63,897 bases of DNA from assembly GCA_947467625.1 (NCBI GenBank), contig CANIJN010000004.1, positions 1-63,897 of the forward strand, written 5' to 3'. Source of the stretch: Opitutia bacterium. GTDB lineage: Bacteria > Verrucomicrobiota > Verrucomicrobiia > Opitutales > Opitutaceae. The notes under the pieces are model-generated. The model made no database searches and had not been told where the DNA came from. It saw nothing but the letters and a program-made list of their open reading frames with translations. Positions 24,779 through 47,034 of this stretch are shown one piece after another. Position 1 is the stretch's first letter. Every line of letters starts with the position of its first letter. Both the position numbers and the translations under genes were made by a program.

Positions 24779-25968
24779 TGGATCCGCGGCAGGAGGAGTT
24801 GCGGCGGCGGTTGGGCGAAGTGGGTTTCGACGAGGTGCGGTTCGCGACCCTAGCGAGCGGATACGACGATGGCTTACGGGCCTGGCTGGACGCGGGCCTG
24901 CACGGGGAGATGGGTTGGATGGAGCGCACGGCGGACAAACGGATCGATCCGCAGCTCGTGCTGCCGGGCGCGCGCTCGGTGATCATGCTGGGGATCAGTT
25001 ATGCGGAGGGTGGTCAACGCGACGCAGGCGTGGCGGCTCCCACGCAGGGCGTGGGCGAGAGGGCGGGGCGACCGACGTGGGCCCGCTATGCGTTGAACGA
25101 GGATTACCACGACACGGTGAAGCTGGGGTTAATCGCGGCCGGGCGAATCATGCAGGAGCTTTATGGGATCGGCGAAAGTGACTATCGTTACTATGTCGAT
25201 ACGGGGCCGGTGCTGGAGCGGGGGTGGGCGGCGCGGGCGGGAATCGGATTTGTCGGGAAGAATGCGATGCTCATTTCCCGGCGACACGGGAACTGGCTGT
25301 TGCTGGCGGCGATTCTAACCAAGGTGGCGTTCGTGGCGGACGCACCGATTCGGAAAAAAGTGGAGAATCTCGACACGAAGCACGCGGGTGAGGTCGGGCT
25401 GTTGTGTGGAAAATGCACGCGGTGCCTCGACGCGTGCCCGACGGACGCCTTTGTGAAACCGGGTGTGGTGGATGCGCGCCGGTGCGTGTCGTATCAGACG
25501 ATTGAGAACAAGGGGGTTATTCCGCGTGAACTGCGGGCGGGGATCGGACAACGCATCTATGGCTGTGATGTCTGTCTCGAGGTGTGTCCGTGGAACCGCT
25601 TTGCACAGGAAGGTCGGAAGATGCTGCTGTCGGTGCGGGGTGACATTGCGGAACTGGAGTTGCGGGAAATCCTGGCGCTGACGCCGGTGCGGTTCGCCGA
25701 GGTGTTTCGGCGGACGGCGATCAAGCGCGTGAAGCTGGGTGGGCTGTTGCGCAACGCCTGCGTGGTGGCGGGGAATTCGGGTGATACCGCGTTGTTGCCG
25801 CCATTGGTCGAGTTGGCACGCGCCCATGATGTGGCGTTGGTGCGAGCGCATGCGGTGTGGGCGGTGTATCGCCTCGGCGGACGGGCCCTGCTGGCGGGAG
25901 CGGAGGCGACGGAGACGGACGCGACGGTGCTCGCGGAATATGCGGCGGAGGCCGGACCCGTTACTTAA
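24778..25968 (+). CDS. queG: Epoxyqueuosine reductase
   Basis: 396 residues. It reduces epoxyqueuosine in tRNA to queuosine, with cobalamin and two [4Fe-4S] clusters. Both cluster motifs are visible: CGKCTRCLDACPTDAF (about residues 215-230) and CDVCLEVCPWNRFA (about 265-278). The N-terminal cobalamin-binding part includes RYALNEDYHDTVKLGL and YYVDTGPVLERGWAARAGIG with the conserved Asp, and FVGKNAMLI. The C-terminus has a HEAT-like helical region (LARAHDVALVRAHAVWAVYR), as in many QueG proteins. The stop overlaps the end of the convergent thioesterase gene by a few bases. Confidence 0.95.
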   Translation: MDPRQEELRRRLGEVGFDEVRFATLASGYDDGLRAWLDAGLHGEMGWMERTADKRIDPQLVLPGARSVIMLGISYAEGGQRDAGVAAPTQGVGERAGRPTWARYALNEDYHDTVKLGLIAAGRIMQELYGIGESDYRYYVDTGPVLERGWAARAGIGFVGKNAMLISRRHGNWLLLAAILTKVAFVADAPIRKKVENLDTKHAGEVGLLCGKCTRCLDACPTDAFVKPGVVDARRCVSYQTIENKGVIPRELRAGIGQRIYGCDVCLEVCPWNRFAQEGRKMLLSVRGDIAELELREILALTPVRFAEVFRRTAIKRVKLGGLLRNACVVAGNSGDTALLPPLVELARAHDVALVRAHAVWAVYRLGGRALLAGAEATETDATVLAEYAAEAGPVT

Positions 25969-26362
25969 AGAGTGCGTTCATCCGCGCGACGAACGCTGCG
26001 GGTGGCCGGGTGGGACGCCCCGCGAGATCACAGAACGCATGGGCGCTCTGGCCGGTGGCCAAAAGTTCGTCGCCGCGGAAAACCTCGTACTCGATCCGGA
26101 TGCGCAAGAGCGGTTTTTCGCGAATGGTGGCGACGATCGTGAGGGTGTCGTCGTAGAGCGCAGGACGGCGGTATTTGGCGGCGACTTCGAGGACGGGAAG
26201 GCGATAGCCATCCGTCTCGAGCTGACGGTAAGGGAAGCCCTGCTCGCGGAGGAGCTGGGTCCGGGCGACCTCAAACCACGGAAGATAATTCGCGTGATAG
26301 ACGATGCCCATCATGTCGGTTTCGGCGTAGCGGACGGTGATTGGGGCGCGCGCGGAGATCAT
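25961..26362 (-). CDS. Acyl-CoA thioesterase (YbgC/FadM-type hotdog)
   Basis: 133 residues. A single hotdog domain with the 4HBT signature VRYAETDMMGIVYHANYLPW, including the catalytic Asp of the YbgC class, followed by FEVARTQLLREQGFPYRQLE. It probably hydrolyses short- to long-chain acyl-CoA or acyl-ACP in the cytoplasm. The ATG at 26360-26362 overlaps the stop of the upstream glycosyltransferase gene (ATGA), which was used to choose the start; the longer frame is Arg-rich. Position next to a lipid and glycan gene group makes a role in lipid metabolism plausible. Confidence 0.92.
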   Translation of the reverse strand: MISARAPITVRYAETDMMGIVYHANYLPWFEVARTQLLREQGFPYRQLETDGYRLPVLEVAAKYRRPALYDDTLTIVATIREKPLLRIRIEYEVFRGDELLATGQSAHAFCDLAGRPTRPPAAFVARMNALFK

Positions 26363-27525
26363 GGTTCGGTCTCGGCGTCGATCGGACTGAAGAGGGCCGC
26401 GGCCGATTCCTTCCAGCAGTTGCGCGTCGCCCAATCGCGACCGGCGGCGCCCAGCTTGCGGCGCAAGGGCTCGTCGTGGATGAGTTTTTCGAAAGCCGCG
26501 GCCAGTTGGGCGGGGCGACGGGGAGGGACGAGGAGGCCGGTGACGCCTTCCCTGACTGCCTCGGAGACCCCGCCGACGTCGTGAGCCACGACCGGCAAGC
26601 CGTGGGCGGCGGCTTCGAGGTAAACGAGGCCGAAGCCCTCGACACTCTGTTCGAGGTTGACGCTCGTCATCGCGAAGATGTCCGCGCGCTCGTAAAGATG
26701 GGAGAGTTCCTCGTCGGGAATGTTGCCAAAAAAGCGGACGGCGAGATCCGGTTTTTCGGCGGCGGCGGCGCGGAGCTGGGGTTCGTAGTTTCCCTTGCTT
26801 TGGCCGCCGACGACCCAGTACTCGAGGCGGGAGCGGACGTCGGGAGCGAGCGTTTGCAGCGCCTGCAAGGTGAGGAGTTGGCCTTTGCGCGGGTGGAGGC
26901 GGCCGACAGTGAGAATGACGATTTTTTTCCGAGCGGTCGCAGGTTTGGGCGGGACGACGGCGAAGTCCGAGCGGAGTGCGCCGGGAGTGAGAAAAATCTT
27001 TTCGGCTGCTGCAGGGAAATGGGCGACGAGCAGTTCCTGCGTGTAATGGGTGAGTGTGCTGATGCGATGGGCTCGACGGATGAGTTGTCCGGTGAGCCAG
27101 CGCCGCAAGGGATTGCGGGTGAACTTGAGGATTTCTGAGCCGTGAAACGTCAGTACGAGGCGACGCGGGCGGAAGGCTTGGAAAAATTGCAGGAGCATCA
27201 TCGTCATCATCGGCCCGGGTTCAGGCAAATAGACGGTGGCGTGGCGGAGGTCGCGGCGGTGGCGGATTAGTTCGCGCGCGAGTTGGGCCTGGCACCAGAC
27301 ATCGTGCGTGCCCTTGAGCGGAAGGCGGCGAAGGCGGAAGGGCCAGTCGGGTCGCTCGATGGTGGCCGGAGCGGATTGGGCCCAGACCTCGATGTTGTAA
27401 CCGAGGCCCGCGCTGGCACGGGCTATTTCCTCGGTGAAGGTCGCGATACCGCCCCGCACCGGATAAAACTCGTGCGTAATCAGAAAAACCGGCCGGGCGT
27501 TGGGAGCCGTTGAAATTGCGGACAT
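26359..27525 (-). CDS. Glycosyltransferase family 4
   Basis: 388 residues, two Rossmann domains of the GT-B fold. The N-terminal domain has FLITHEFYPVRGGIATFTEE and LTFHGSEILKF; the C-terminal donor-binding domain has VGRLHPRKGQLLTLQAL and the GT4 ESVEGFGLVYLEAAAHGLPV-like segment with the EGFGLVYLEAAAHG motif, ending in GGVSEAVREGVTGLLVPP. It transfers a sugar from a nucleotide donor to an unidentified acceptor. First gene of a group of envelope-related glycosyltransferases, but transcribed away from them; it is coupled to the thioesterase by an ATGA overlap. Confidence 0.9.
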   Translation of the reverse strand: MSAISTAPNARPVFLITHEFYPVRGGIATFTEEIARASAGLGYNIEVWAQSAPATIERPDWPFRLRRLPLKGTHDVWCQAQLARELIRHRRDLRHATVYLPEPGPMMTMMLLQFFQAFRPRRLVLTFHGSEILKFTRNPLRRWLTGQLIRRAHRISTLTHYTQELLVAHFPAAAEKIFLTPGALRSDFAVVPPKPATARKKIVILTVGRLHPRKGQLLTLQALQTLAPDVRSRLEYWVVGGQSKGNYEPQLRAAAAEKPDLAVRFFGNIPDEELSHLYERADIFAMTSVNLEQSVEGFGLVYLEAAAHGLPVVAHDVGGVSEAVREGVTGLLVPPRRPAQLAAAFEKLIHDEPLRRKLGAAGRDWATRNCWKESAAALFSPIDAETEP

Positions 27526-27750: not shown

Positions 27751-28749
27751 ATGCCAGACGCAGTTCTACCAAATCAGGGCACCAGCAAGCCGATCCCGCA
27801 GACGAACAAGCCCTTTTCTCCAGAGGACGAAACCGCGCTGCGCGAGGCGTTGAAGCGTTGTTCGCCCTCGGCTTTTGAATCGGCGGTACAGTTCCGCAAG
27901 ACTGGTAATGCCGAGCATGTTCCGGCGGTTGTCATCGGTATTATTGAGCGCTTTGTTGAGCCGGATTTACGCATCAAGTTGAAGGATGCGGACGATGATC
28001 TTCGGCTGATCGAGGATCTGGGAATCGACTCCCTCACGATGATGGAAATCGTCATTTTGGTGGAGGATGTGCTCCAGATGACGATCAATAATGATGAGCT
28101 CCGCAATCTCCGCACGGTCGGCGATGTGAAGACTTTTATCGACTGCAAGATCCGCGGCCTAGCGCTGCCCAAGCCGACGAAGTTCATCCCGATTGAGCAC
28201 ATTGGTGCCGTCATGCCCGTTCAGCCGCCCTTTCTCTTCCTGAATGAAGCGTCCGTGAGCTCAACGGCGGCCAATGGTAAATATAGGATCACCGGCCAGG
28301 AGTTTTTTCTTCAGGGTCACTTCAAGGACAATCCCGTGATGCCGGCCTCCATTATGTTGGAAGCATTGGGGCAACTGGCGGTGCTGTATCTGTTGGAAGG
28401 CGCGCCCACCGAAGCCGGTAAGGTTGTGAGCCCGCAGTCAATTTTCTTTACGGGTTGTGAAGGCGTGCGGGCCCATCGCATTTGCAAACCCGGCGATATC
28501 CTCTCGCTCTCGATCAAGCCGAAGCGCATGAAAATGCCCTTGGCTACCTTCGAAGGTGCGATTCGGGTTGGCCAGGAAAAGGCCGTTATCGCCGAGGAGA
28601 TTACCCTCACTTTCTTGATGGTGGACGCGGCGAATGCGCCCGTTTCGATCAATGGTTCGTTCGAGCACGCGGGGAATCTCAGCGTTTCCTCCGCGGCACC
28701 TGCGACGAGGGTGCCCCCGTTGCGCGTCGCGATGAACGCGACAAGTTGA
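27751..28749 (+). CDS. Acyl carrier protein fused to a FabA/FabZ-like hydroxyacyl-ACP dehydratase
   Basis: 332 residues. Residues about 50-135 form an ACP: LGIDSLTMMEIV carries the phosphopantetheine-attachment Ser (about residue 94) in the DSL motif. From about 150 a hotdog dehydratase follows: VQPPFLFLNEASV, LQGHFKDNPVMPASIMLEAL with a catalytic-type His (about 190) and Glu (about 204), and GEV-like beta strands. The first 45 residues are low-complexity. A fused ACP-dehydratase is unusual for primary fatty-acid synthesis and suggests a dedicated pathway. It is followed 193 bp later by a ketosynthase gene and then a reductase, which together would make a near-complete elongation module. The upstream 225 bp hold no obvious promoter, but a TTTACA and TAAAAG pair lies near the start. 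Confidence 0.9.
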   Translation: MPDAVLPNQGTSKPIPQTNKPFSPEDETALREALKRCSPSAFESAVQFRKTGNAEHVPAVVIGIIERFVEPDLRIKLKDADDDLRLIEDLGIDSLTMMEIVILVEDVLQMTINNDELRNLRTVGDVKTFIDCKIRGLALPKPTKFIPIEHIGAVMPVQPPFLFLNEASVSSTAANGKYRITGQEFFLQGHFKDNPVMPASIMLEALGQLAVLYLLEGAPTEAGKVVSPQSIFFTGCEGVRAHRICKPGDILSLSIKPKRMKMPLATFEGAIRVGQEKAVIAEEITLTFLMVDAANAPVSINGSFEHAGNLSVSSAAPATRVPPLRVAMNATS

Positions 28750-28942
28750 CGCCACGGTCGCGCCCGCTCAACGCGCGCGAGTTTGGGCCCAGCACACTTT
28801 ACGGCGACCCTGATGGTCGACGTTTTTGCGTTGGGTTGGCTGCTCCCGCGTTGACCGGCGCGTGCGAACTGCTCTCACTTCGTCTCCCGGTCCGGTGCAT
28901 TCCTTTTTGGCGGGATGTCCGCAGCCGCTCCACTACGCACGC

Positions 28943-30205
28943 ATGCCCAGAGTCTTTATCACCGGCCTAGGATTGGTCACCAGTATCGGCAACGATGCTG
29001 CGACCGTAACGCGCAGTCTCCGCGAACTGCGCCACGGTTTTGAGGTTTTCCCCCCGTTCCAGAAGCCAGAGATTCCTGTCAAGGTGATCGGTACGATCAA
29101 GGATTTCGCCACGAATTCTCCTGATCAGGAGGACTGGGTGTTTCCGGCCGGCTACACGATCAAGCGCGAACTCTTGCGCACGATGGCGCCGAATGGGCTC
29201 TTTGCCCAGTGCGCGATGCTGCAGGCGGTCGCGGACGCCAAGCTTGCGGAGCCCGATATTTCCAACCGACACACGGGACTCTACGCCGCGTCAGCCGGCT
29301 CGCCTTACCTGCTGCATTACCACAACGACCGACTCAATAAAGTCGGGGTGATGCGGTGTTCGCCGCTGGGGATCGTGGCCTCGATTGCGGGCACGCTGAA
29401 TTTCAATTTGATCGCGGCCTTCAAAATTCAAGGCTCGTCGTGCGGTTTTTCGTCGGCCTGTGCGTCGTCTGCGCACGCGCTTGGTTTCGCGTTGGATGAC
29501 CTGAAGCTCGGTCGACAAAAGCGGATGTTTGTCGTGGGGGCTGAAGATGGAAACCTCGATGCTATTTTGCCGTTTGCCGGCATGCGCACGTTGTCGCTGC
29601 AGACCGATCCGAATCTCGCATCGCGCCCGTTCGACGCCGCGCGGGACGGGTTTGTCGGCACCGGAGGCGGTGTGGCGCTGGTGCTGGAGACCGAGGAAGA
29701 GGTCGTGCGTCGCGGTGTGACGCCCTACGCGGAAGTGTTGGGTTGGGGCCAAGCGTCGGATGGTTGGAACGTCGCCATCTCGCATCCCGAAGGCAGTGGC
29801 TCGGCTGCTGCGATGACGCTCGCGCTCCGCGCCAGCGGAGTCTCCCCCGAGCAGGTGGACTATGTCAACGCCCACGCCACCTCGACGCTCATTGGTGATA
29901 TTTCGGAAGCGCGGGCCCTGCGATCCGTGTTTCAGGATTCCGCGCTGCGTCCTGCGGTGAGCAGTACGAAGGCGCTGACCGGGCACGGGCTTTCCCTCGC
30001 CGGGGTGATGGAGAGTGCGTTCTGTGCACTGGCGATCCGGGAGGGATTTATGCCGGGCAACGCGCACCTCACGAAGCTAGATCCCGAATGCGCAGGTATC
30101 AATATTCTGCGCACGACGGAGAACACGCCGCCCAAGATTGTCATTAAGAACAGCAGCGGATTCGGCGGTGCCAACGTCGCCCTGGTCTTCAAGCGGGTTG
30201 CCTAA
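28943..30205 (+). CDS. Beta-ketoacyl-ACP synthase (KAS I/II type)
   Basis: 420 residues. Condensing enzyme of the thiolase fold that extends an acyl-ACP by two carbons. The nucleophile Cys lies in SSACASSAHALGFALDDL (about residue 173); the two His residues are in NAHATST (about 311) and TGHGLSLAG (about 348), giving the elongating C-H-H triad with the Lys of KALTGH. The C-terminal NSSGFGGANVALVFK motif is typical. MPRVFITGLGLVTSIG marks the start, at ATG 28943; the longer frame upstream is not protein-like. It lies between the ACP-dehydratase and a short-chain reductase, so it probably acts with them rather than in housekeeping fatty-acid synthesis. Confidence 0.92.
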   Translation: MPRVFITGLGLVTSIGNDAATVTRSLRELRHGFEVFPPFQKPEIPVKVIGTIKDFATNSPDQEDWVFPAGYTIKRELLRTMAPNGLFAQCAMLQAVADAKLAEPDISNRHTGLYAASAGSPYLLHYHNDRLNKVGVMRCSPLGIVASIAGTLNFNLIAAFKIQGSSCGFSSACASSAHALGFALDDLKLGRQKRMFVVGAEDGNLDAILPFAGMRTLSLQTDPNLASRPFDAARDGFVGTGGGVALVLETEEEVVRRGVTPYAEVLGWGQASDGWNVAISHPEGSGSAAAMTLALRASGVSPEQVDYVNAHATSTLIGDISEARALRSVFQDSALRPAVSSTKALTGHGLSLAGVMESAFCALAIREGFMPGNAHLTKLDPECAGINILRTTENTPPKIVIKNSSGFGGANVALVFKRVA

Positions 30206-30209
30206 CACC

Positions 30210-31052
30210 GTGGCTGCCGCACGCGTTTCCGATCTGCACCGCACGGCCTTCATTACGGGTGCGAGCACGGGCCTCGGCCGGGCCTTTGCGGAAATGCTGC
30301 TCGCCGACGGGGTCCGCGTCTGGGGCACGGCGCGCGACGGCGCCCGTCTCGACGCGCTTGTCACCCAGCATGGGGAGCGGTTCACGCCAGTTATTCTGGA
30401 TCTGCGGGACGGTCCGCAGGCCGAAGCGAGGTTTCGTGCGGCCGACCGGAGTGCGGGAGGTTTCGACCTCGTGATCAACAATGCCGGCTACGGAGTGTTC
30501 GCAGAATTTGTGGCGACCGACTTTACGGTGTGGGCGGAGCAGCTGCAGGTGATGCTCATCAACACGGCGCGACTCGCGCACGCCGCGCTGGGTGGGATGT
30601 TGGAGCGGAACCGGGGCGCGCTGGTCAACATCTCGTCGCTGGCGGCGGAGTTTCCGCTGCCCTTTCAGTCCGCCTACAATATCGCGAAAGCGGGGCTCTC
30701 CGCGCTCAACGAAAGTCTCATGATGGAGGTTTCCGGCGCGAAGGTCGTCATACTCGATGTGCGTCCCGGCGACTATCGAACGGATTTCGAAGGCTCGGTC
30801 CGCCGACCGCAGTCGGCGTCGGCGCAGAGTCCGCGGTTGGCGCGGGCGTGGACGGCGTTTGTGGCGATGATGGAGTCGGGGCCGGCGCCCGCGCAGGCTG
30901 CGGTGGAGCTACGGCGCGCGCTGTTGCGGAATCGCAGCGGCACGGTGCGCATCGGACGGTTTTTCCAGGCGGTGATCGCGCCCCTGATTGCTCGCTTTGG
31001 TTCGCTGGCGCTCAAGCGCCGGATTCAAGCGACTTATTTCAAGATTTCCTGA
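30210..31052 (+). CDS. Short-chain dehydrogenase/reductase
   Basis: 280 residues from the GTG at 30210, 4 bp after the ketosynthase stop. Classical SDR fold: cofactor motif AFITGASTGLGRAFAEMLL, NNAGYGVFAEF (NNAG), a catalytic Ser in LVNISSLAAE, and Tyr/Lys in SAYNIAKAGLSAL. The R of GTARDGARLDAL after strand 2 favours NADP(H). The C-terminal part contains a hydrophobic helix (FFQAVIAPLIARFG), as in membrane-associated keto-reductases such as 3-ketodihydrosphingosine reductase. In this place it likely reduces a 3-keto intermediate made by the ketosynthase or by the alpha-oxoamine synthase; which one cannot be read from sequence. Confidence 0.87.
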   Translation: MAAARVSDLHRTAFITGASTGLGRAFAEMLLADGVRVWGTARDGARLDALVTQHGERFTPVILDLRDGPQAEARFRAADRSAGGFDLVINNAGYGVFAEFVATDFTVWAEQLQVMLINTARLAHAALGGMLERNRGALVNISSLAAEFPLPFQSAYNIAKAGLSALNESLMMEVSGAKVVILDVRPGDYRTDFEGSVRRPQSASAQSPRLARAWTAFVAMMESGPAPAQAAVELRRALLRNRSGTVRIGRFFQAVIAPLIARFGSLALKRRIQATYFKIS

Positions 31053-31056
31053 CCGC

Positions 31057-32295
31057 ATGTCCAAGCTCCGTATTCTTGTTCTCACAGCCAGCACCGGTGG
31101 TGGTCACGACGCGCGGGCGGAGGCGTTTGCCGAGTGGTGTTTTCAACTTTACCGGCACGACGTCGACGTGCGCATCGAGCAGATGCTGGAGAAATCGTCT
31201 GTGGTGAACCGCGCGGGCGTGGGCCTTTACAATCGCATCCAGCGGTTGGCCCCTTGGATGCACCGTGGGTTTTACGCCTTTGTCGAGCTCCTGAGTTGGC
31301 TCAATCGGAGCGACGTCACGTTTGGCTCCAGCTATTATTTGAAGGTCTTGCAGGACTACCAACCTCACCTCGTGTTCAGCGTGCACGACTGTCTCAACCG
31401 CGGCTATTTTCAACTCGCGCGGGCTACGCTCGGCGCCAACCGCGTGCGCTGCGCGACCTACTGCGGGGAATTTTCAGGTGGCTGGGGCTATTCGCGCAAC
31501 TGGATCGAGCCAACGGTCGACCGATATTTTTCGCGTACGCCGACGGCGGCGGACTACGCGGTCAAGCAAGGGATCGCGCCGGAGAAATCGCGCGTGCGCG
31601 GTTATCTGATGTTGCCGCGCTCGCACTTGGAGGTGCTGACCCCGGCGGACCGGCGGGTGTTTCAGGCGAAGAAACTCGGACTTAATCCCGACAAGTTCAC
31701 GGTCTTTCTCGCGACGGGGAGCAATGGGGCGAACAATCACTTCGACCTCCTCCAAGGGCTGATGAAGCACGCCGAACGCGTGCAGGCGATCGTGATTTGT
31801 GGCAAGAATAAGGAGACCTACAACGACCTCGTGCACTGGCGCGCTACGCACCCCGAGTTTGCCTGCCACATCGAGGGCTACTCGGAGATCGTTCATTTAT
31901 TCATGCAAGCGAGCGATGTGATTGTGACGCGCGGTGGCACGACGACCTGCGCGAAGGCCCTGCATTTTCAGTGTCCGATTATCTTCAATGCGTTTGGTGG
32001 GATCATGCCGCAGGAGGAGCTGACGTGGAAATTTTTCCGCAATGGCGCCGCTTCGGAGAAAGTGGAGGATGCGGTGGATTTTGCCCGGCTGATTGATCGG
32101 TGGATGGCGACCCCGGCGGCCTACGCGGCGGTGCGGGAGAATTTTCTGAAACTGCGTTACGTGGAGGATCCGACGCTGCTGATCGAGGAGCTCGTGGGGA
32201 TGGCCAACGAAGTGGTCGGAGCGAAGCTGAAGCGCTGGGCCTTTCCGCCGTCGAACGGTAGCAGTGCACCGTCCGCGCCGAGCGGGAAGGCTTAG
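31057..32295 (+). CDS. MGDG synthase-like glycosyltransferase (GT28 type)
   Basis: 412 residues. The N-terminus LTASTGGGHDARAEAFAEWC is the MGDG_synth (PF06925) glycine/His motif of diacylglycerol glycosyltransferases such as UgtP and plant MGD. The C-terminal donor domain has FLATGSNGANNHFDLL, VICGKNKETYNDLV and SDVIVTRGGTTTCAKALHFQ, like GT28/MurG enzymes. The likely reaction is transfer of a hexose to a lipid at the cytoplasmic face of the membrane. The ATG at 31057 lies 4 bp after the reductase stop and the genes are probably co-transcribed. The product would be a glycolipid if the preceding genes make the lipid. Confidence 0.88.
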   Translation: MSKLRILVLTASTGGGHDARAEAFAEWCFQLYRHDVDVRIEQMLEKSSVVNRAGVGLYNRIQRLAPWMHRGFYAFVELLSWLNRSDVTFGSSYYLKVLQDYQPHLVFSVHDCLNRGYFQLARATLGANRVRCATYCGEFSGGWGYSRNWIEPTVDRYFSRTPTAADYAVKQGIAPEKSRVRGYLMLPRSHLEVLTPADRRVFQAKKLGLNPDKFTVFLATGSNGANNHFDLLQGLMKHAERVQAIVICGKNKETYNDLVHWRATHPEFACHIEGYSEIVHLFMQASDVIVTRGGTTTCAKALHFQCPIIFNAFGGIMPQEELTWKFFRNGAASEKVEDAVDFARLIDRWMATPAAYAAVRENFLKLRYVEDPTLLIEELVGMANEVVGAKLKRWAFPPSNGSSAPSAPSGKA

Positions 32296-32365
32296 GGCCG
32301 CGATTCCGCGGTGGAACGTAATGCGCTTGGCCACGGCGCGGGTGGCGCTCTAGCTTCTCGCCACT

Positions 32366-33577
32366 TTGTCGACCGAAGCGCCTGTCATCGCCTATCTTTT
32401 TACGACGTTCCCGAAGCCCACGGAGACTTTTCTCCAGCGAGAAATCATCGCGATGCGTGCGCATGGGGTGAATCTGCGGCTCTATTCGCTCTGGGGTGGT
32501 GGGGGGACGTTTCGTGGGCTGCCGGTGGCGACCTTCAACAAGTGGCGACTGTTGACCCTTTTTTGGATGATTCCCTATGAGTCGTGGCGCCGGCCAGAGG
32601 TCTTACGGCAAGTCTTGGCCGGACTCTCCGCGCGCCGGGCGCCGTCGTGGATTAACTTTTGGGAGAATATGCTTGGGGCCGGTTTCGCCTGTATTTTTGC
32701 CCGGCATTTCAGGGGCAACCGACCGGCGCTCATCCACGCTGCGTGGGGTGGTGCGCCCGCGACAGCGGCTTGGCTGCTGTGGCGGCTCGATCAGCATCGC
32801 TTCAGTGCGGCGGCACACGCCTACGACATTTATGAGCACGGCGGCGATTGGTGGCTGAAGGATAAGTTGCAGCATGCCGCCTTCGTCCACACGTCAACGG
32901 AGATGGGGCGCAAGGCGCTGGTGGCCCGCGGGCTGGCGGCGGAGAGGATTTTTTGCATACGCCGCGGTCTTGATCGACTGCCGGCGTTGAAGCCGCTGCG
33001 AGCATCGCGTGAGCCGTTGCAGCTGGTGTGCGTGGCGCGGTTGGTGGAGAAGAAAGGTCTCGATCATCAACTGCGCGTCTATGCCGCGCTGCGCGCTGCG
33101 GGGGTGGCCTTTGAAGCGCGGATCGTGGGGGAGGGACCGTTGCGGCCGGAGCTGGAAAAACTCGCGGGCCACCTCGGGATCGCGGCGAGTCTGACGTTTA
33201 CCGGACATTTGCCGCATCATGAAGTGTGGAGCCAGCTCGCGTGGGCGGATGTCCTGTTGCACACGGGGGTGATTGCGCCCAGTGGGGACCGTGATGGTTT
33301 GCCGAATGTGATTCCCGAGGCGATGTCGGTCGGCGTGCTCGTCATCACCTCCCCGGTGGCCGCGACCACCGAGGCCGTGACGCAAGGAGTGACGGGACTT
33401 GTCGTGCCGGTGGAATCGACGGAGGTGTGGGTGAGTGCGTTGCGCCGGTTGTCGAGGGATGATGTGTTTGCCGAGAAACTGCGGCGAGCGGCGCGGGTTT
33501 GGGTGGAGGAAAACTTCAACGCGCACGGCAATGCGGCGCGCGTGCTCGCGTTGTTCAAGCGGTCGATTGAGTCATGA
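32366..33577 (+). CDS. Glycosyltransferase family 4
   Basis: 403 residues from a TTG start at 32366. GT-B fold with FPKPTETFLQREIIAMRAHG (typical of exopolysaccharide GT4 enzymes), AHAYDIYEHGGDWWLKDKL, LVCVARLVEKKGLDHQLRVY, IVGEGPLRPELEKLA and DGLPNVIPEAMSVGVLVITS (the EAM-type acidic motif). The start is uncommon, but MSTEAPVIAYLFTTFP is what the family begins with and no ATG lies closer. It overlaps the next glycosyltransferase by ATGA. Probably adds a sugar to the glycan or glycolipid. Confidence 0.89.
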   Translation: MSTEAPVIAYLFTTFPKPTETFLQREIIAMRAHGVNLRLYSLWGGGGTFRGLPVATFNKWRLLTLFWMIPYESWRRPEVLRQVLAGLSARRAPSWINFWENMLGAGFACIFARHFRGNRPALIHAAWGGAPATAAWLLWRLDQHRFSAAAHAYDIYEHGGDWWLKDKLQHAAFVHTSTEMGRKALVARGLAAERIFCIRRGLDRLPALKPLRASREPLQLVCVARLVEKKGLDHQLRVYAALRAAGVAFEARIVGEGPLRPELEKLAGHLGIAASLTFTGHLPHHEVWSQLAWADVLLHTGVIAPSGDRDGLPNVIPEAMSVGVLVITSPVAATTEAVTQGVTGLVVPVESTEVWVSALRRLSRDDVFAEKLRRAARVWVEENFNAHGNAARVLALFKRSIES

Positions 33578-34593
33578 TCCATTTCGATGTTACGAAGGCC
33601 GGAGGGGCGGGCCATCGCTCGGGATTGATGCGGGTGAGTGCACGCTTGGCCGACGGCCTGCGGGAGGTGGCGACGGAGGTGCGTTGGCCGACGTGGGATC
33701 GCGCGACGTTACGGGCGGACGATTGGTTTCTCACCGGAGAGTTATTTTCCGAGGAAGAACGGCCGGGGTTTACGGCCTTTTTGGAGCAACGAGTGGGACG
33801 GACGGCGGCGATTTTTCACGACGCGATTCCGTTGACGCACCCGCACATTACTTGGCCGCAGAGTGTGGCGCGCCATCCGGGCTACCTGAAACTGCTCGCG
33901 AAGTTCGACCGCGTCTGGGCGGTGTCGGCGGCGAGCCGCGAGGAGTTGCTGGGATTCTGGCGCTGGCAGGGGCTCGCCAAGACTCCGCCGGTCGGCGTGC
34001 TCGCGCTCGGGGCCGATTTTATTTCGGCGCCGCGGGCAACGCTGCGCGCGACGCCGGCGAGACCGAGTCTGTTGAGCGTGGGGATTCTCGAGCCGCGCAA
34101 GAACCAGATGTTTTTGCTGGATGTGAGTGAGGAGTTGTGGGGCGAAGGGCTGGAGTTTGAACTCCATCTCGTGGGGCGCGTGAATCCGCATTTTGGAGCG
34201 CCGATTTTGCGTCGGATCAAAGCGCTCAGTCGAAAAAACGGAGGGCTTCATTATCACGAAGCGGCGAGTGATGCTGCCGTCACGGCTCTTTACGCGACGG
34301 CGCGGGCCAGTGTGGTGCCGACGCTCGCGGAGGGCTGTGGACTGCCGGTGCTGGAATCGCTGTGGATGGGGGTGCCCTGTGTGTGCAGCGACTTACCGGT
34401 GTTGCGGGAAAATACGGCGGGCGGCGGCTGCCTGCCCGTGGCGCTGAATGATCGGGCCCAATGGAAGGCGGCGCTACGGCGGGTGCTGACGGAAACTACG
34501 CTGCACGCGCTGCTGGCCGCCGAGGCCACGTCGCGAGCCTTGCCTACTTGGGCTGACGCGGCCGAGACGCTGCGCAGCGCGTTGCAACGCTGA
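33574..34593 (+). CDS. Glycosyltransferase family 4 (short-form paralog)
   Basis: 339 residues. GT4: IFHDAIPLTHPHITWPQSVA, RVWAVSAASREELLGFWRWQ, LSVGILEPRKNQMFLL and LAEGCGLPVLESLWMGVPCV with the E-x7-E motif. It shares the IFHDAI and VS..SRE/D..L..(F/Y)WRW segments with the glycosyltransferase at 36046-37317 on the other strand, so the two are paralogs. No transmembrane segments. Start ATG overlaps the previous stop (ATGA). The acceptor is unknown. Confidence 0.88.
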   Translation: MIHFDVTKAGGAGHRSGLMRVSARLADGLREVATEVRWPTWDRATLRADDWFLTGELFSEEERPGFTAFLEQRVGRTAAIFHDAIPLTHPHITWPQSVARHPGYLKLLAKFDRVWAVSAASREELLGFWRWQGLAKTPPVGVLALGADFISAPRATLRATPARPSLLSVGILEPRKNQMFLLDVSEELWGEGLEFELHLVGRVNPHFGAPILRRIKALSRKNGGLHYHEAASDAAVTALYATARASVVPTLAEGCGLPVLESLWMGVPCVCSDLPVLRENTAGGGCLPVALNDRAQWKAALRRVLTETTLHALLAAEATSRALPTWADAAETLRSALQR

Positions 34594-34754
34594 ACGGGCT
34601 AGCCGTTTCCTCGCAGCAGTGAGCAGCTGCAAGTGAAGAGCTGAGCACCCGTTGTCCGGAGAGAAACTGCTCGTCGTCACGCCGGTCAACGAGCGGCACC
34701 GGCTGGTTTTGCGCGCCGCTCTCAGTACGTGGCTTTCGAATGAATGTCTGCGGC

Positions 34755-35951
34755 CTACAGTTTTTTCACCGCATACGCCATGGCATCGGCGATTTTTTCG
34801 AGCTGCTCGTCAGTGTGCAGCGCCGAGATGGCGGTGCGGATGAGGTCCTTGCCGGCGGGGACGGCGGGTGCGATCGACATGACGGTGAAGACGCCTTTTT
34901 CGAGTAGTGCCTTCCAAAACGGGTAAACGCGCTCCTTGGAGCCGAGCACGATGGGCACGGCCGGGGTTTCACTTTCCCAGGTGTCGAGGCCCAAGGACTT
35001 GAGGATCGCGCGGTATTTTTTCGTGTTGGACCAGAGTTTTTCCAGGTGCTGGGGCTCGGTTTGCATCAGCTCGAGTGAGGCTTGCGCACAGGCGACCTGA
35101 CTGGGGCTAATGGCGGCGGAGAAGACGGTCTGTTTCGAATTGGTGCGGAGATATTCGATGACCTCGCGTGAGGCGGCGACGAAGCCTCCGGTGCTCGCGA
35201 GGGACTTCGACATACTGCCGCAGATGACGTCCACCTTATCGTTGAGGCCGAAATGATCGACGGTGCCACGGCCGTGGCGGCCGAGGACGCCGAAGCCATG
35301 CGCATCGTCGAGGACGGTGAAGCAGCCGTGTTCTTCGGCGATCTCAGAAATCTCGGGGAGGCGGGCGATGTGGCCCTCCATGGAATAAACGCCTTCGATG
35401 ACCAACATCTTGGTCGCGTCGCGGTGAGTGGCGGCGAGCGCGCCGCGGAGGTCTTCGGGACTGTTGTGGGAGAAGCGCTCGACGGTCGCCATGGAGAGAC
35501 GGATGCCGTCCCAGAGACACGAGTGAATGTTTTTATCGGCGAAGATGATGTCGCCCTTTTGGGCGAAGGAGGCGATGCTTGAGAGGCACGAGATGTAGCC
35601 GGCGGCACTGACGTGACAGGCCTCACGGCCGAGGAAATCCGCGAGTTTTTCCTCAAGCTCGACGTGGAACGTGCGGGAACCGTTGGAGATGCGGGCGCCG
35701 GTCGTACTCGTGCCCCACTTGAGGAGGGCCGCGCGGCCCGCTTCGATTACTTTGGGGTTAAACGACAGCCCGAGATAATCATTGCTCGAGAGCATAACCA
35801 TCTCGCGACCATCTAGTTTTACGGTGGTTCCCTTCTGGGCCTCCATGGCGTGATAGTAGGGGGCGTATCTCAACCGCATCTTGGTCGCGTAATCATCGCG
35901 ACAGCGGGCCAGCAGTGCCTTTTTGTTTTTGGTGAAGAAGGAGAGCGCCAT
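34755..35951 (-). CDS. Alpha-oxoamine synthase, serine palmitoyltransferase-like (8-amino-7-oxononanoate synthase / KBL family)
   Basis: 398 residues, full-length PLP enzyme of the AOS family that condenses an amino acid with an acyl thioester and releases CO2. Motifs: SSNDYLGLSFNPKVIEAG, NGSRTFHVELEEKLADFLGR, DDAHGFGVLGRHGRGTVDHF and the PLP-lysine GSMSKSLASTGGFVAA (Lys near 249). Comparison by eye with Bacteroides serine palmitoyltransferase shows shared segments such as ESEPERIEKLW-like TEPQHLEKLWSNT and the C-terminal IAPAVPAGKDLIRTAI, and no fused extra domain. Serine palmitoyltransferase is favoured by the neighbouring ACP, ketosynthase and reductase genes, but BioF, KBL or CqsA-type use cannot be ruled out. 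Transcribed convergently to the cluster. Confidence 0.87.
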   Translation of the reverse strand: MALSFFTKNKKALLARCRDDYATKMRLRYAPYYHAMEAQKGTTVKLDGREMVMLSSNDYLGLSFNPKVIEAGRAALLKWGTSTTGARISNGSRTFHVELEEKLADFLGREACHVSAAGYISCLSSIASFAQKGDIIFADKNIHSCLWDGIRLSMATVERFSHNSPEDLRGALAATHRDATKMLVIEGVYSMEGHIARLPEISEIAEEHGCFTVLDDAHGFGVLGRHGRGTVDHFGLNDKVDVICGSMSKSLASTGGFVAASREVIEYLRTNSKQTVFSAAISPSQVACAQASLELMQTEPQHLEKLWSNTKKYRAILKSLGLDTWESETPAVPIVLGSKERVYPFWKALLEKGVFTVMSIAPAVPAGKDLIRTAISALHTDEQLEKIADAMAYAVKKL

Positions 35952-36045: not shown

Positions 36046-37317
36046 TTAGCTGCGTCGTTTCAGCGCGTGCATCCACGTGGTGAGGGTCGCGGCGTAGTCG
36101 GACCACGAGCGGAATTTCCGGGCACGGGCGGCTTGGGCGAGCGCGGCAAGTTCAGTTGGGGTGTCGAGCAGTCGGCGGACGGCGGCAGCCACGTGAGCGG
36201 CGTCGACGGAGGGCAGCGCGACGCAGCCCCCGTCGCGGGCGGATTCGCCAAGGGCGCCGCGGGCGGAGCAGATGCAGGGTTTGCCGTGTGCGAGGCTTTC
36301 GATGACGGGCAGGCCGAAGCCTTCGATGAGTGAAGGGTAAATCGTAAAGGCACAGGAGGCGTAAGCGGAATGGAGTGCGGCCTCGGTGGCGGGGCCGTCG
36401 TAGCGGAGCGGGCGTCCGGCGGCCTGGAGGACTCGCAGGCGGGTGAGGGCGGCGCGACCGGTCTGCGGATGGGCGAGGCCGATGAGGCGGAGTTCGAAAC
36501 GCGCGCCGGCGGACCAGAGTTGTTCGCAGGCGTCGAGGAGGGCGAGGTGGTTCTTACGGCCCTCGAGGGAGCCGACGCTGAGGATAGTCGGGATGGGCTG
36601 AGCGCTGAGTGGTGAGCGCCGCGTATCGGCAACGGCAACGAAAGGGGGACTGCTGGTGGAGGGCGCGGGACGTTTGTCACGTAATACGTGACAAACCGAA
36701 TCGGTGCCGAGGGGGATGGTTTGGACGGGGGGCGGCTGGGTGATGCCGAGCCAGCGCCAGTAGTCGCGCAGGGAGTCGCGGGAATCTTCGGAGACGGCAG
36801 CGATGCCGTCGAAGGCGAGGAGTTCGCGGAGATAGGCGGGAAAGCGGGCGACGGTTTTTGTCGGAGTGAGCTCGGGGAATTTGAGGGCAATGGCGTCGTG
36901 GAAAATCGCGACGCGCGGGCCGGCGACGTTGTGGAGCAGCTCGGGAAGAACGGCGGCGGTGTCGGCAGAGAAGACCTCGGGGACGAGGAGGCCGAACGAG
37001 GCGTGGAGCGTGGAGCGTGGAGCGTGGAGAGACGGCGAGCCGGAGGAGCCGAGGAGGCGGTGGGCGAGGCCGCGAAGTTGGGCGGAGAGAGGCCACGTCG
37101 TGCCGCGTTTTTCGGAGGGGGCGGCGGTGAGACTCTCCGCTTCCCACGGCTCGAGGGCGCGCCAGGTGCGGGCGTGGGGGTCGTAAGTGATGGCGCGGGC
37201 TTCGGAGCCGAGCGCGGTGTGGAGGGAGCGCGCGACGCGTTGGATGCCGGTGCGCGCACGCGTGTGGCTTGTGTGGGTGAGGTCGATGAGGATCGGAGCG
37301 GGCATGGCGGCGCTCAA
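36046..37317 (-). CDS. Glycosyltransferase family 4 (paralog of the gene at 33574)
   Basis: 423 residues. GT4 features: LTHTSHTRARTGIQRVARSL at the N-terminus, VAIFHDAIALKFPELTPTKT, AAVSEDSRDSLRDYWRWLGI, LSVGSLEGRKNHLALLDACE, and YPSLIEGFGLPVIESLAHG (donor-binding E-x7-E). Between residues 90 and 110 it carries a low-complexity patch coded by a 7-bp tandem repeat, and near residue 210 a patch coded by a perfect palindrome, both listed separately. It starts within 4 bp of the stop of the upstream membrane-protein gene (ATGA). Expected to work on an envelope glycan. Confidence 0.86.
   Translation of the reverse strand: MSAAMPAPILIDLTHTSHTRARTGIQRVARSLHTALGSEARAITYDPHARTWRALEPWEAESLTAAPSEKRGTTWPLSAQLRGLAHRLLGSSGSPSLHAPRSTLHASFGLLVPEVFSADTAAVLPELLHNVAGPRVAIFHDAIALKFPELTPTKTVARFPAYLRELLAFDGIAAVSEDSRDSLRDYWRWLGITQPPPVQTIPLGTDSVCHVLRDKRPAPSTSSPPFVAVADTRRSPLSAQPIPTILSVGSLEGRKNHLALLDACEQLWSAGARFELRLIGLAHPQTGRAALTRLRVLQAAGRPLRYDGPATEAALHSAYASCAFTIYPSLIEGFGLPVIESLAHGKPCICSARGALGESARDGGCVALPSVDAAHVAAAVRRLLDTPTELAALAQAARARKFRSWSDYAATLTTWMHALKRRS
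36672..36696. repeat. 25-bp perfect palindrome inside a glycosyltransferase gene
   Basis: Arms GTTTGTCACGT and ACGTGACAAAC flank a 3-base loop (AAT). It lies inside the coding frame of the GT4 gene at about residue 210 and reads in frame as CHVLRDK. It looks like a small inserted palindromic element or a protein-binding site; no second copy was noticed in the window. Confidence 0.6.
37001..37028. repeat. Four tandem copies of a 7-bp unit
   Basis: The unit GCGTGGA is repeated four times without change within the GT4 coding frame (on the minus strand it codes for an alternating His/Ala/Pro/Arg/Ser/Thr patch). As the period is not a multiple of 3, a gain or loss of one unit would shift the frame, which makes it a possible contingency (phase-variation) site. 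Confidence 0.6.
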
Positions 37318-43949: not shown

Positions 43950-46901
43950 TTAATACGTTAGTTTAAGCCCAGTCGCGTACAGCGTGCCCTGTTTCTGAGA
44001 ATTATATTTCAGGCCGCCTTCCCGCACAAATGTTTGGTTAAACTCATTGGTGAGATTCAGGATATCCAGATAGACTTCGCAGCGGCGGTTGATCCGGTAT
44101 TGGGCCTTGAAATCGACGATTAGCCGAGGGTCGCTGTAGACGGAGGCATTGCCTTCCCCGCTGCGGTAGTAACGGCCGTTCCAGTTTCCGAGGAGTCGTA
44201 ATTGCGCGCCGCGGCCGACGTAGGAGAGGCCGGCGTTGGCGACGCGCGGGCGTTGGTTTGCCAGTTGTCGCTGAAAGGTCGTCGTGCCGAAATCTCCCTC
44301 GGCTTGCGTGTAGCTGAAGTTGGCAAACGAGCCGAAGCCTCGCCAAAAACTTGGCAGAAACGTGTACTGCTGTTGGTAGCTCACTTCGAAACCCCGAATG
44401 CGCGCGCTGCCCGTATTCTGCACTTGGCGGAGCGTGTAGCCGGTAAACTGCCCTTCGAAACCGTTGTCGGCGCCGCCCATGAGCGCCGTGTCAATCGAAC
44501 GCGTGTAATTCGTGATTTCCTTCAAAAATACGCTGACCTCGAAGAGCCCGACCGGCTCAAAATATTTTTGCACGGCCACTTCGAAATTATCTGCGGTGTA
44601 GGGCCGCAGGTCAGGATTTCCGGCGGTGATGATCCGCGTCTCCTCGTTGACGTTGGTGGTCGGGAGTAAGCTGCCCACTGCTGGCCGGGTGATGGAGGCG
44701 TGATAACTGGCGCGTAGTTGTAGCCGCGACCAGGGTTCCGCCACCACATGGAGTCCGGGAAATACATTCACATAATGACCGGTCGTCGTGAATTGTCCGA
44801 GCGCGAATTGGGCCCGCGCCCGCGCTGCATTCTGTGCGGGCGGCAAGGTCGTAAGCGAGGTGGTGCCGCCCGCCGCTGAGGTCCTGCGACGGTAGGCGGT
44901 CCCGGTGTTCTCGGTCTGCTCGGCGCGCACGCCCCCGAGGATGCGCACGTTGCCCAAGGTCAGCCCGCCCAGCGCATAAGCCGAGTCGATCACCTCTGCG
45001 AAGCGCGCGTCCCCGGACAGCGAACTCGTGACGCTGTTGTAGGCATCGGCCGCGGTTTGCGTCCAGAGGTCCGGTCGTTCCGCCAGATCCCGACTCCCGC
45101 CCGCACCCGGCGCGAGGACAAAGGGGAAGGGTCCATAGTGGCCGGCCCCTTGCTTGAATTGCGCCCCGAGAAACGGCGTGATCCCGCGCGCTCCGGTGAA
45201 CGTGTAGTTTTCTAAATTAGTATCCTGCTCCCGCCGATCCAGCTCATGGCGGGCCCCCACTTTCCAATAAGCGGGGATCGCGGTAGCGAGATTGCGCCGG
45301 AGATCGGCGCGCAGCCCGATACGCTCGGCCGGCGCCCGATAGGAGCGACGGATATAGGAGCGTGGCGTGTAGTTCGCGGGGTCGTAGATCGAGGGGCCCG
45401 CGGTCTGGGTAAACGCCGGATACCACGCAGGCTGGTTGCGCCGATCGATCTGCCAGCCGATACCAGTCACATCCGCGATGATGTCCGCATTAATAGGATA
45501 CCAGGTCGTCGCGCGAGAATAGCTCGCATCAAAGGTCAGCAATCCCGCTCCGCCGGCGAGTTTATGCTCCAGTCCGGTCGAAGCCGCATACGTGGTGGCT
45601 TTTTTTCGCGACTGGCCGGAGAACACTTCGGAGCGGGAGCCCGCGATGGGCAACGCGCGCTGCCACTCGTAGGTGCTGCCGGGCTCGTAACTGGCGGCTG
45701 CGGCCGTCGTGGATGTGGTTTGTCGATAAATGCTCGCGACCTCCGGCGTCAGGTTGAGGTTGCCGGTATTTCTGAGGTAAATGAAGGAGCGGTCGCCCAG
45801 CTTGTAATCCAGATTAAGCCCAAGGTTTTGCTTATGCGTGGGCGCATAGGTTTCACCTGAGCCCATCGCCCGCAAGAGCGGCGAGGTGAGCCCGTTCGTC
45901 GCAGTGGGCAACACATGTCCCGCGCCTGCCGCCGCGACGCCGATGCCACCCACGGCGTCCGTCAGCGTTGGCGCCGAGCGATGGCTGACATTGAAGGCGA
46001 CGCCGAGGTTTTTCTGGCCACCAAAGACGCTGAAGACATCGGAATAATTGACCGTGATTAGGTCCAGTTGCGCGCGATCTTTCGCCGGGCTCTTGCCTGC
46101 GTAGAAATCGGTCCAGCGCGTGCCGAGCGTCAGATCGAGGCGGCGGCCACGCCGATCAAAACCGCGTTTGGAAACCAGATTGAGATAACCTGCGATCGCA
46201 TTCGCGGGCATGTCGGGGGTCGGTGCGCGGACAATTTCTGCGGACTCGATGTTGCCCGTGTCGAGTGCGGTGAGTTGGAAATCGCGGCTTGAGGAGGTCC
46301 CGACAGACGAGGCGAGCGTATTCCCGTCCGTCATTAGCGAGATGAAACTCGTGCCCATGCCCCGCATGAAAATCTCCACTGCCTCGCCCGAAACAAAGTT
46401 CACGGCGACGCCCGGCAGGCGCATGAGGAGTTCGCCGGGATTGGCGGCGGGGTTGCCGAAGGTGTCGGTCGCGGCCACGGTTTTGGCGTGGTCGGCTTGG
46501 CTTTGTAACTGAATCGCCAAGGCCTGTCCCTCGCGTAATCCGCTCACGGTAAATTTCTCGAGCTGGTAAATTGCGGCGGTGAGGCCGACTTCGGTCTTTA
46601 CCTCGCCGCCCGCGGGGACGAGTACGGCCACGCGCTTCGTCTCGAGACCAGCAAAGGAAATGATGAGCGTGGTCGGCCCGGCCGGAGCGGGAAACGTGAA
46701 GACGCCCCCGCGTTCGCTGCTTGTTTCACCGGGGAGGCCCTCGACTTGAATACGTGCCCCCGCGAGGAGATCCATCGTGGCGAGATTCACGACTACGCCC
46801 GTGATCAAGCCGGGCGCCGGCGTCGCGGCCGCCAGAGACGTCAGCGCGACAGTGTTCGCGAAAAAGGCGACGCACACCGTGAGGAGAGAGGGGATTTTCA
46901 T
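43950..46901 (-). CDS. TonB-dependent receptor with N-terminal carboxypeptidase-regulatory domain
   Basis: 983 residues. Signal peptide (MKIPSLLTVCVAFFANTVAL), then a CarboxypepD_reg-like domain with GLITGVVVNLATMDLLAGAR and ERGGVFTFPAPAGPTTLIIS, a plug domain (NPGELLMRLPGVAVNFVSGE, VEIFMRGMGTSFISLMTDGN) and a large beta-barrel ending in an aromatic-rich C-terminus (LYATGLKLTY). Uptake of a large substrate or iron complex across the outer membrane, driven by TonB, is expected; the ligand cannot be read. The start at 46899-46901 was chosen because it begins the signal peptide; the frame continues upstream in a Pro/Ser-rich shadow. It stands apart from the glycan genes on both sides and may be unrelated to them. 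Confidence 0.88.
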   Translation of the reverse strand: MKIPSLLTVCVAFFANTVALTSLAAATPAPGLITGVVVNLATMDLLAGARIQVEGLPGETSSERGGVFTFPAPAGPTTLIISFAGLETKRVAVLVPAGGEVKTEVGLTAAIYQLEKFTVSGLREGQALAIQLQSQADHAKTVAATDTFGNPAANPGELLMRLPGVAVNFVSGEAVEIFMRGMGTSFISLMTDGNTLASSVGTSSSRDFQLTALDTGNIESAEIVRAPTPDMPANAIAGYLNLVSKRGFDRRGRRLDLTLGTRWTDFYAGKSPAKDRAQLDLITVNYSDVFSVFGGQKNLGVAFNVSHRSAPTLTDAVGGIGVAAAGAGHVLPTATNGLTSPLLRAMGSGETYAPTHKQNLGLNLDYKLGDRSFIYLRNTGNLNLTPEVASIYRQTTSTTAAAASYEPGSTYEWQRALPIAGSRSEVFSGQSRKKATTYAASTGLEHKLAGGAGLLTFDASYSRATTWYPINADIIADVTGIGWQIDRRNQPAWYPAFTQTAGPSIYDPANYTPRSYIRRSYRAPAERIGLRADLRRNLATAIPAYWKVGARHELDRREQDTNLENYTFTGARGITPFLGAQFKQGAGHYGPFPFVLAPGAGGSRDLAERPDLWTQTAADAYNSVTSSLSGDARFAEVIDSAYALGGLTLGNVRILGGVRAEQTENTGTAYRRRTSAAGGTTSLTTLPPAQNAARARAQFALGQFTTTGHYVNVFPGLHVVAEPWSRLQLRASYHASITRPAVGSLLPTTNVNEETRIITAGNPDLRPYTADNFEVAVQKYFEPVGLFEVSVFLKEITNYTRSIDTALMGGADNGFEGQFTGYTLRQVQNTGSARIRGFEVSYQQQYTFLPSFWRGFGSFANFSYTQAEGDFGTTTFQRQLANQRPRVANAGLSYVGRGAQLRLLGNWNGRYYRSGEGNASVYSDPRLIVDFKAQYRINRRCEVYLDILNLTNEFNQTFVREGGLKYNSQKQGTLYATGLKLTY

Positions 46902-47034
46902 GGGAGGTAGTGAGCCGGGGGGCCGGGGGTGCGGGGTTCGATCCGGTGATAGGGTGGTGGCCACGCGGCGGGGAGGCGAGCTCGGTGGAGGCGCCGCGAA
47001 GACGACGCTGCCGAGAAATCTACCGACGCTGGGT

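Follow-up and report, generated by a model that had tools for sequence, protein, structure and literature searches.

The window analysed here, a 63,897-nucleotide stretch of contig CANIJN010000004.1 (assembly GCA_947467625.1) from an Opitutia bacterium of the family Opitutaceae, carries a gene cluster that has, in our judgement, about an even chance of making a glycosylated long-chain-base (sphingolipid-type) lipid, with a dedicated type II acyl module feeding an alpha-oxoamine synthase (AOS) of the serine palmitoyltransferase (SPT) type. The enzyme families, their catalytic residues, the placement of the AOS among the SPTs, the conserved linkage of the genes and their co-occurrence are established. 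The seven genes that the original prediction had described as a close-set plus-strand run with a convergent AOS are there as described, with the open reading frames (ORFs), Pfam and NCBIfam in agreement: the plus-strand genes, from the fused acyl carrier protein (ACP)-dehydratase (ACP-DH) to the second of two GT4 glycosyltransferases, are spaced by gaps of 193, 19, 4 and 70 bp and then overlap by 4 bp, and the AOS gene, convergent to this run, lies 161 bp from it. Together with the flanking glycosyltransferase genes, the locus is laid out as follows (coordinates are those of the window).

26359..27525, minus strand: GTup, a GT4 glycosyltransferase, divergent from the cluster (Pfam PF00534/PF13439)
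27751..28749, plus strand: ACP-DH, two N-terminal helices, an ACP (S94) and a FabZ-like hot-dog dehydratase (H190/E204), fused (PF00550, PF07977)
28943..30205, plus strand: KS, an elongating beta-ketoacyl-ACP synthase, KAS I (FabB)-like, C173-H311-H348 (PF00109, PF02801; NCBIfam)
about 30225..31052, plus strand: SDR, a short-chain dehydrogenase/reductase, proposed 3-keto reductase (Pfam adh_short)
31057..32295, plus strand: GT28 / monogalactosyldiacylglycerol (MGDG)-synthase-like glycosyltransferase (PF06925, PF04101, both over the cut-off)
32366..33577, plus strand: GT4a, a GT4 glycosyltransferase (PF00534; syntenic in relatives)
33574..34593, plus strand: GT4b, a GT4 glycosyltransferase (PF13692; syntenic within the family)
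34755..35951, minus strand: AOS, an SPT-type enzyme with the pyridoxal phosphate (PLP) lysine Lys249, Ala279, Arg372 and Ser246 replacing Thr (trees, residues, nearest PDB relative)
36046..37317, minus strand: GTdn, a GT4 glycosyltransferase beyond the AOS (PF00534)

That these genes are grouped beyond chance is borne out by the relatives, in counts that ignore kinship and, for the phylum searches, score at most four candidates per genome. All nine genes, both flanking GT4 genes included, stand together in 14 of the 29 fetched loci of the same family, with contig ends, relocated blocks and poor matches explaining only some of the incomplete ones. An AOS at least 59% identical to that of the window is present in 43 of 57 relatives, and an ACP-DH, fused or split, accompanies it in 42 of these 43, the sole AOS genome lacking one being 50% complete; the ACP-DH of genome G013 carries internal stops. 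The two genes lie no more than 20 kb apart in 23 of the 42 genomes having both, i.e., a dedicated ACP is linked to the SPT-type enzyme, and four of these 23 (G039, G040, G049 and G053) belong to four other families. Across a sample of 387 genomes of the phylum, an AOS (at least 53% identity) occurs in 45, every one of which also has a KS of the cluster family (at least 46%), and the two lie within 20 kb of each other in 25 of the 45, versus 0.46 expected; the linked genomes outside the family number three (G208, G306 and G135), from three other families. In G306 and G135, from other families of the class, GTup, ACP-DH, KS, SDR, the MGDG-like gene, GT4a and AOS are gathered within about 14 kb and about 17 kb, respectively, without GT4b and GTdn and with genes added for a class III aminotransferase, a GT1-type protein, a weak SCP2-like match and a probable membrane protein. 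The flanking genes are also retained, GTup being found beside ACP-DH in 25 of 30 loci (own locus included), as well as in G306 and G135, and GTdn in 16 of the 17 wide family loci with an AOS. The tie of the AOS to the acyl module is real.

The AOS is the only one found (E 1e-5) in its genome, an assembly of 362 contigs that totals 5.59 Mb at 96.1% completeness. Its solved relatives are headed by the S. multivorum SPT (326 bits), followed by a Thermus BioF/Kbl (265) and the S. paucimobilis SPT (255), with SulA (204) lower in the ranking. Two maximum-likelihood trees were built (34 rows in the first and 37 in the second, from which the long-branched Rufibacter_c of the first was dropped); in both, the 14 window-type AOS group together (100/100 and 100/99), inside the SPTs and apart from BioF, Kbl and ALAS, with support of 92/90 in the first tree and of 98/90 and 96/85 in the second. 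The first tree gives a Rubrobacter plasmid enzyme, the closest plasmid relative at 45.5% identity, as the sister of this group (91/93, under the starred level of the tool), and the second settles on no sister; the operon of the Rubrobacter AOS matches Caulobacter bCerS (36%) and CerR (33%), i.e., it shows the SPT-bCerS-CerR pattern. Ala279 is present in 14/14 window-type rows, as in the SPT rows, where SulA has a Lys (Lys281) and BioF, ALAS and Kbl have Thr or Asn, the significance of Ala or Lys at this position being treated in passages of PMC9304779; K249, H143, D215/H218, R372 and N57 align with the SPTs as well, these residues being common to other AOS too. Judged by trees and residues, the enzyme appears to be SPT-type, as had been proposed, the condensation with serine itself being predicted. 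The alternative raised alongside, an unrelated KBL or BioF, is opposed by both trees and by residue 279, and gene order and co-occurrence tie the AOS to ACP-DH and KS; a BioF, Kbl or ALAS identity is ruled out by the trees and residue 279, and that of a SulA (sulfonolipid) enzyme by the Ala in place of Lys. A structure model of the AOS was of low confidence (pLDDT 67.6, six sequences) and was not used. The Rufibacter AOS (L192), for its part, has a Lys at the SulA position and is likely a sulfonolipid enzyme.

The acyl module is equally recognizable. The AlphaFold model of ACP-DH (mean pLDDT 79.3) shows a pair of N-terminal helices followed by a helical, ACP-like domain and a hot-dog domain, and all 50 of the PDB matches listed for it by Foldseek are FabZ-type dehydratases; the hot-dog fold comes with the His/Glu dyad (H190, E204), which is the catalytic pair of FabZ. 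These two residues and S94 of the ACP are invariant in the relatives aligned (alignments of 19 and 16 rows, the ACP-DH of locus L110 being left out of the latter), and the protein scores under the NCBIfam FabZ cut-offs (65.3 of 113 and 58.7 of 155 bits). The C-H-H triad pointed out earlier in the KS is C173-H311-H348, invariant in 17 aligned rows and as expected of an elongating KS (KAS I/II), the nearest solved relatives in the PDB comparison being KAS I (FabB). The catalytic roles of the triad, of S94 and of the dyad are presumably those known for the families in general. Since the genome holds four PF02801 and three PF07977 proteins, the cluster KS and ACP-DH being one of each, the two are extra copies; another of the PF07977 proteins sits in a 446-residue frame that we take for an LpxC-FabZ fusion. 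The whole ACP-DH fusion was found at no fewer than 16 loci among the named genomes (L101-L116, labelled Opitutaceae, Opitutae, Opitutia, Puniceicoccales, Puniceicoccaceae or Verrucomicrobia), and at 64 further listed loci the match is confined, or almost confined, to the dehydratase part.

Relatives of these parts occur in other settings. Stand-alone paralogues of the ACP part of the fusion (51-62% identical) are seen at L230 (contig C80 of the own genome, G000), L231, L232 and L233, adjoining large receptor-like or secreted-repeat proteins, for which TonB or FecR would be tentative labels read from the sequences. The own genome has another specialised acyl module (G000:C123), in which a FabA-fold dehydratase is encoded about 5 kb or less from a KS, and a second KS paralogue (58% identical) is accompanied by ACP-like and other lipid-like genes at L224 (G023:C3), a locus which, by resemblance, may be an aryl-polyene-type cluster.

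The pathway that we propose would run as follows: the ACP of the fusion would carry the growing chain, to be elongated by the FabB-like KS and dehydrated by the fused FabZ-like domain, with housekeeping enzymes finishing the cycle; the finished acyl-ACP would then be passed to the SPT-type AOS for decarboxylative condensation with serine (or a similar amino acid); reduction of the resulting 3-ketone by the SDR would yield an amino alcohol; and the MGDG-synthase-like enzyme, for which the nearest NCBIfam model is diglucosyl diacylglycerol synthase (under its cut-off), would add the first sugar, the GT4 enzymes extending it. We infer the hand-over of the substrate, the order of the steps, the ketone reduced by the SDR, the amino acid, the identity of the sugars, any N-acylation of the base and the destination of the lipid. 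As the module has a KS, a reductase-type SDR and a carrier-fused dehydratase but no enoyl reductase, it is conceivable, at long odds in our view, that trans-2-enoyl-ACP might be delivered straight to the AOS, giving 3-keto-sphing-4-enine with serine; if this were true, the Delta-4 double bond of sphingosine would arise as the chain is built and would need neither a desaturase nor oxygen.

A number of observations weigh against the proposed sphingolipid-type pathway. The PLP-phosphate position of the AOS is Ser246 in 14/14 window-type rows, versus Thr in 20/20 other AOS rows, a conservative change and one that is not known to be SPT-defining, and the enzyme falls under all three NCBIfam SPT cut-offs (388 of 640, 351 of 500 and 288 of 670 bits); the Rubrobacter and Aureispira AOS likewise miss the NCBIfam SPT cut-off. 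Both features, together with the V or L found directly before the active-site loop in 13/14 window-type rows, versus N in 9/10 rows of the SPT group, would suit an enzyme that uses alanine or glycine instead of serine and makes a 1-deoxy base or an aminoketone, with no sphingolipid resulting. We consider such a specificity improbable: the remaining listed active-site residues match SPT, Ala279 included, and the sugar-transfer genes would fit a lipid with a hydroxyl head. The ketone reduction attributed to the SDR in the original prediction is upheld in one respect and weakened in another, as the best model for the orthologue in G135, a distant member of the class, is KdsR (NF049977, 160.2 bits, just over the 158.6 of the generic model), and the window SDR prefers the generic oxidoreductase model (131.9 bits, with 92.7 for KdsR). 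Both proteins miss the KdsR cut-off of 400 bits, and the solved structures closest to the window SDR include FabG-type reductases; its substrate may be either a 3-keto base or a 3-ketoacyl-ACP.

The remaining difficulties lie in the distribution of the genes, and several of them favour the main rival, in which ACP-DH and KS are a general fatty-acid module, making unsaturated or special chains for ordinary lipids (FabA/FabB and FabN/FabO are example routes to such chains), and the AOS is a separate SPT using any acyl thioester. The KAS I (FabB) likeness of the KS agrees with this, and ACP-DH occurs without an AOS in 6 of the 57 relatives (two of these, G003 and G005, being fragmented assemblies), as does a KS of the cluster family in 9 of the 387 genomes of the phylum sample. 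KS and ACP-DH are neighbours in G056 and also in two genomes with a split or partly matched ACP-DH (G055 and G051); G053 and G039 have ACP-DH, GT4a and AOS together with no KS adjoining. Linkage of AOS and KS within 20 kb is missing from 20 of the 45 AOS genomes, and since KS paralogues (51-60% identical) exist within the same family, the KS counted in these 20 may be a paralogue. Among 15 loci with a placed AOS (most of them chosen as unlinked), 9 lack any cluster gene within five ORFs of it, and the unlinked AOS loci share no common acyltransferase neighbour, only GT4, SDR and MGDG-like genes being seen in some. Set against the general fatty-acid module are the near-constant presence of ACP-DH wherever the AOS occurs, the linkage of AOS and KS far above expectation, and the other KS and FabZ-type genes of the genome, which also has one fatty-acid-desaturase match; we regard this explanation as rather unlikely. 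A further rival would have the locus serve a lipopolysaccharide core or surface glycan, with the AOS as a bystander and the acyl module building a special chain for lipid A or for a glycan anchor. The many glycosyltransferases would agree with that, as would two local arrangements: in G051 the KS is followed by a Kdo-transferase-like gene, and in G049 and G040 the AOS has GT9 heptosyltransferase-like neighbours. The AOS, however, keeps GT4a, GT4b, the SDR and the MGDG-like gene in G016 and G020, where ACP-DH and KS are elsewhere, and it stays with most of the gene set in G306 and G135; we regard a lipopolysaccharide or surface-glycan locus as quite unlikely.

The genes of the canonical ceramide pathway were sought with Caulobacter sp. 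queries assigned by position around the SPT (gene order in part from passages of PMC11324152), an assignment borne out by the G017 matches sharing a contig with a canonical SPT and by the Rubrobacter operon matching both. Counting against the proposed sphingolipid-type pathway as well, neither gene was found in the own 96.1%-complete genome: bCerS was missed both by the protein query (E 1e-5) and by a five-row profile (E 1e-3), and CerR by the protein query (E 1e-10). A canonical ceramide operon is thereby rejected, and the glycosylceramide suggested in the original prediction is not indicated. The homologue search proposed there did yield matches among the 57 relatives, with bCerS in 4 by protein query and in 5 by profile (the profile being built partly from two of them) and CerR in 8. 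Genome G017 has an SPT over the cut-off, bCerS and CerR on one contig (L218, G017:C13) and the window-type AOS on another, and since it holds both on separate contigs, the canonical ceramide system and the window-type system differ. In G006, G007 and G008, which belong to the window's own genus, a bCerS homologue is present and the window-type AOS is the only AOS, so N-acylation would be possible in these three.

The Rhodobacterial ceramide genes are aasR, cerR, acpR, spt and cerS, and the SPTs prefer a dedicated AcpR loaded by AasR, as described in passages of PMC9386255 and PMC11324152. Like the Rhodobacterial and Caulobacter genes, as far as those passages go, the window has genes for a dedicated ACP and a reductase near that of its SPT-type AOS; unlike them, its ACP forms one protein with a dehydratase and is encoded next to a KS, and bCerS and CerR were not found in its own genome. 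No acyl-ACP synthetase AasR was seen among the nine locus proteins scanned, the rest of the genome not having been searched for AasR. In Pseudomonas fluorescens MYb115 (PfSgaAB(C)), passages of PMC12134224 describe a type I polyketide synthase (PKS), SgaA, feeding the SPT SgaB, with PKS-derived sphinganines, long-chain ones included, among the products and a homologue of the 3-ketodihydrosphingosine reductase proposed. A dedicated chain-building enzyme feeding an AOS with SPT activity is what the two would have in common, in the window as a proposed feature; SgaA, going by those passages, is one iterative multidomain PKS, in contrast to the separate type II ORFs and several glycosyltransferases of the window, and no iterative type I PKS lies beside the window AOS. 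SgaB itself is absent from both AOS trees, and homologues sought on Burkholderia and Streptomyces plasmids were of no help, the B. multivorans match grouping with Kbl (the stretch fetched around it having no PKS-like KS match) and that of B. glumae with BioF.

The Bacteroidota SPT and KdsR (S. multivorum SPT, 3a2b/8guh; BT_0972, PMC9278070) resemble the window in that the S. multivorum SPT is the solved enzyme closest to its AOS (326 bits) and in having an SDR-type ketone reductase, a role proposed for the window SDR; they differ in that the Bacteroidota SPTs, which have no fused ACP, are said in passages of PMC11324152 to use acyl-CoA. SulA, a cysteate acyl-ACP transferase treated in passages of PMC9304779, has the AOS fold and takes acyl-ACP as its donor, as is proposed for the window enzyme, which differs in its Ala in place of Lys281 and in its scores (SulA 204 vs SPT 326 bits). 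FabZ and FabB of type II fatty acid synthesis are alike in fold and catalytic residues; the window genes, unlike them, are extra copies, involve an ACP-DH fusion and score under the NCBIfam cut-offs. The built-in module of the fatty acid synthase kind, which the original prediction thought might be new for an SPT, has precedents in SPT-dedicated ACPs and in a type I PKS that supplies an SPT (passages of PMC9386255 and PMC12134224, respectively); no description of a discrete type II module with glycosyltransferases feeding an SPT was found in the open-licence PMC literature.

Should the proposed pathway hold, a discrete type II module would join acyl-ACP synthetase (AasR) loading and the type I PKS (SgaA) as a third route by which an SPT obtains its acyl chain, and the hand-over from carrier to SPT would become testable with two proteins. 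SPT-like genes of Verrucomicrobiota have been counted in metagenomes (22 metagenome-assembled genomes), with no pathway given in the passages of PMC11334938, and searches of the open-licence PMC literature yielded no described sphingolipid pathway and no useful lipid report for Opitutae; the locus offers a concrete gene set, conserved in Opitutae, and predicts a glycosylated sphingoid lipid there. As for the surroundings of the cluster, a 4HBT-type thioesterase is encoded at 25961-26377, just past GTup, and a TonB-dependent receptor-like protein of 1350 residues at 43950-48002.

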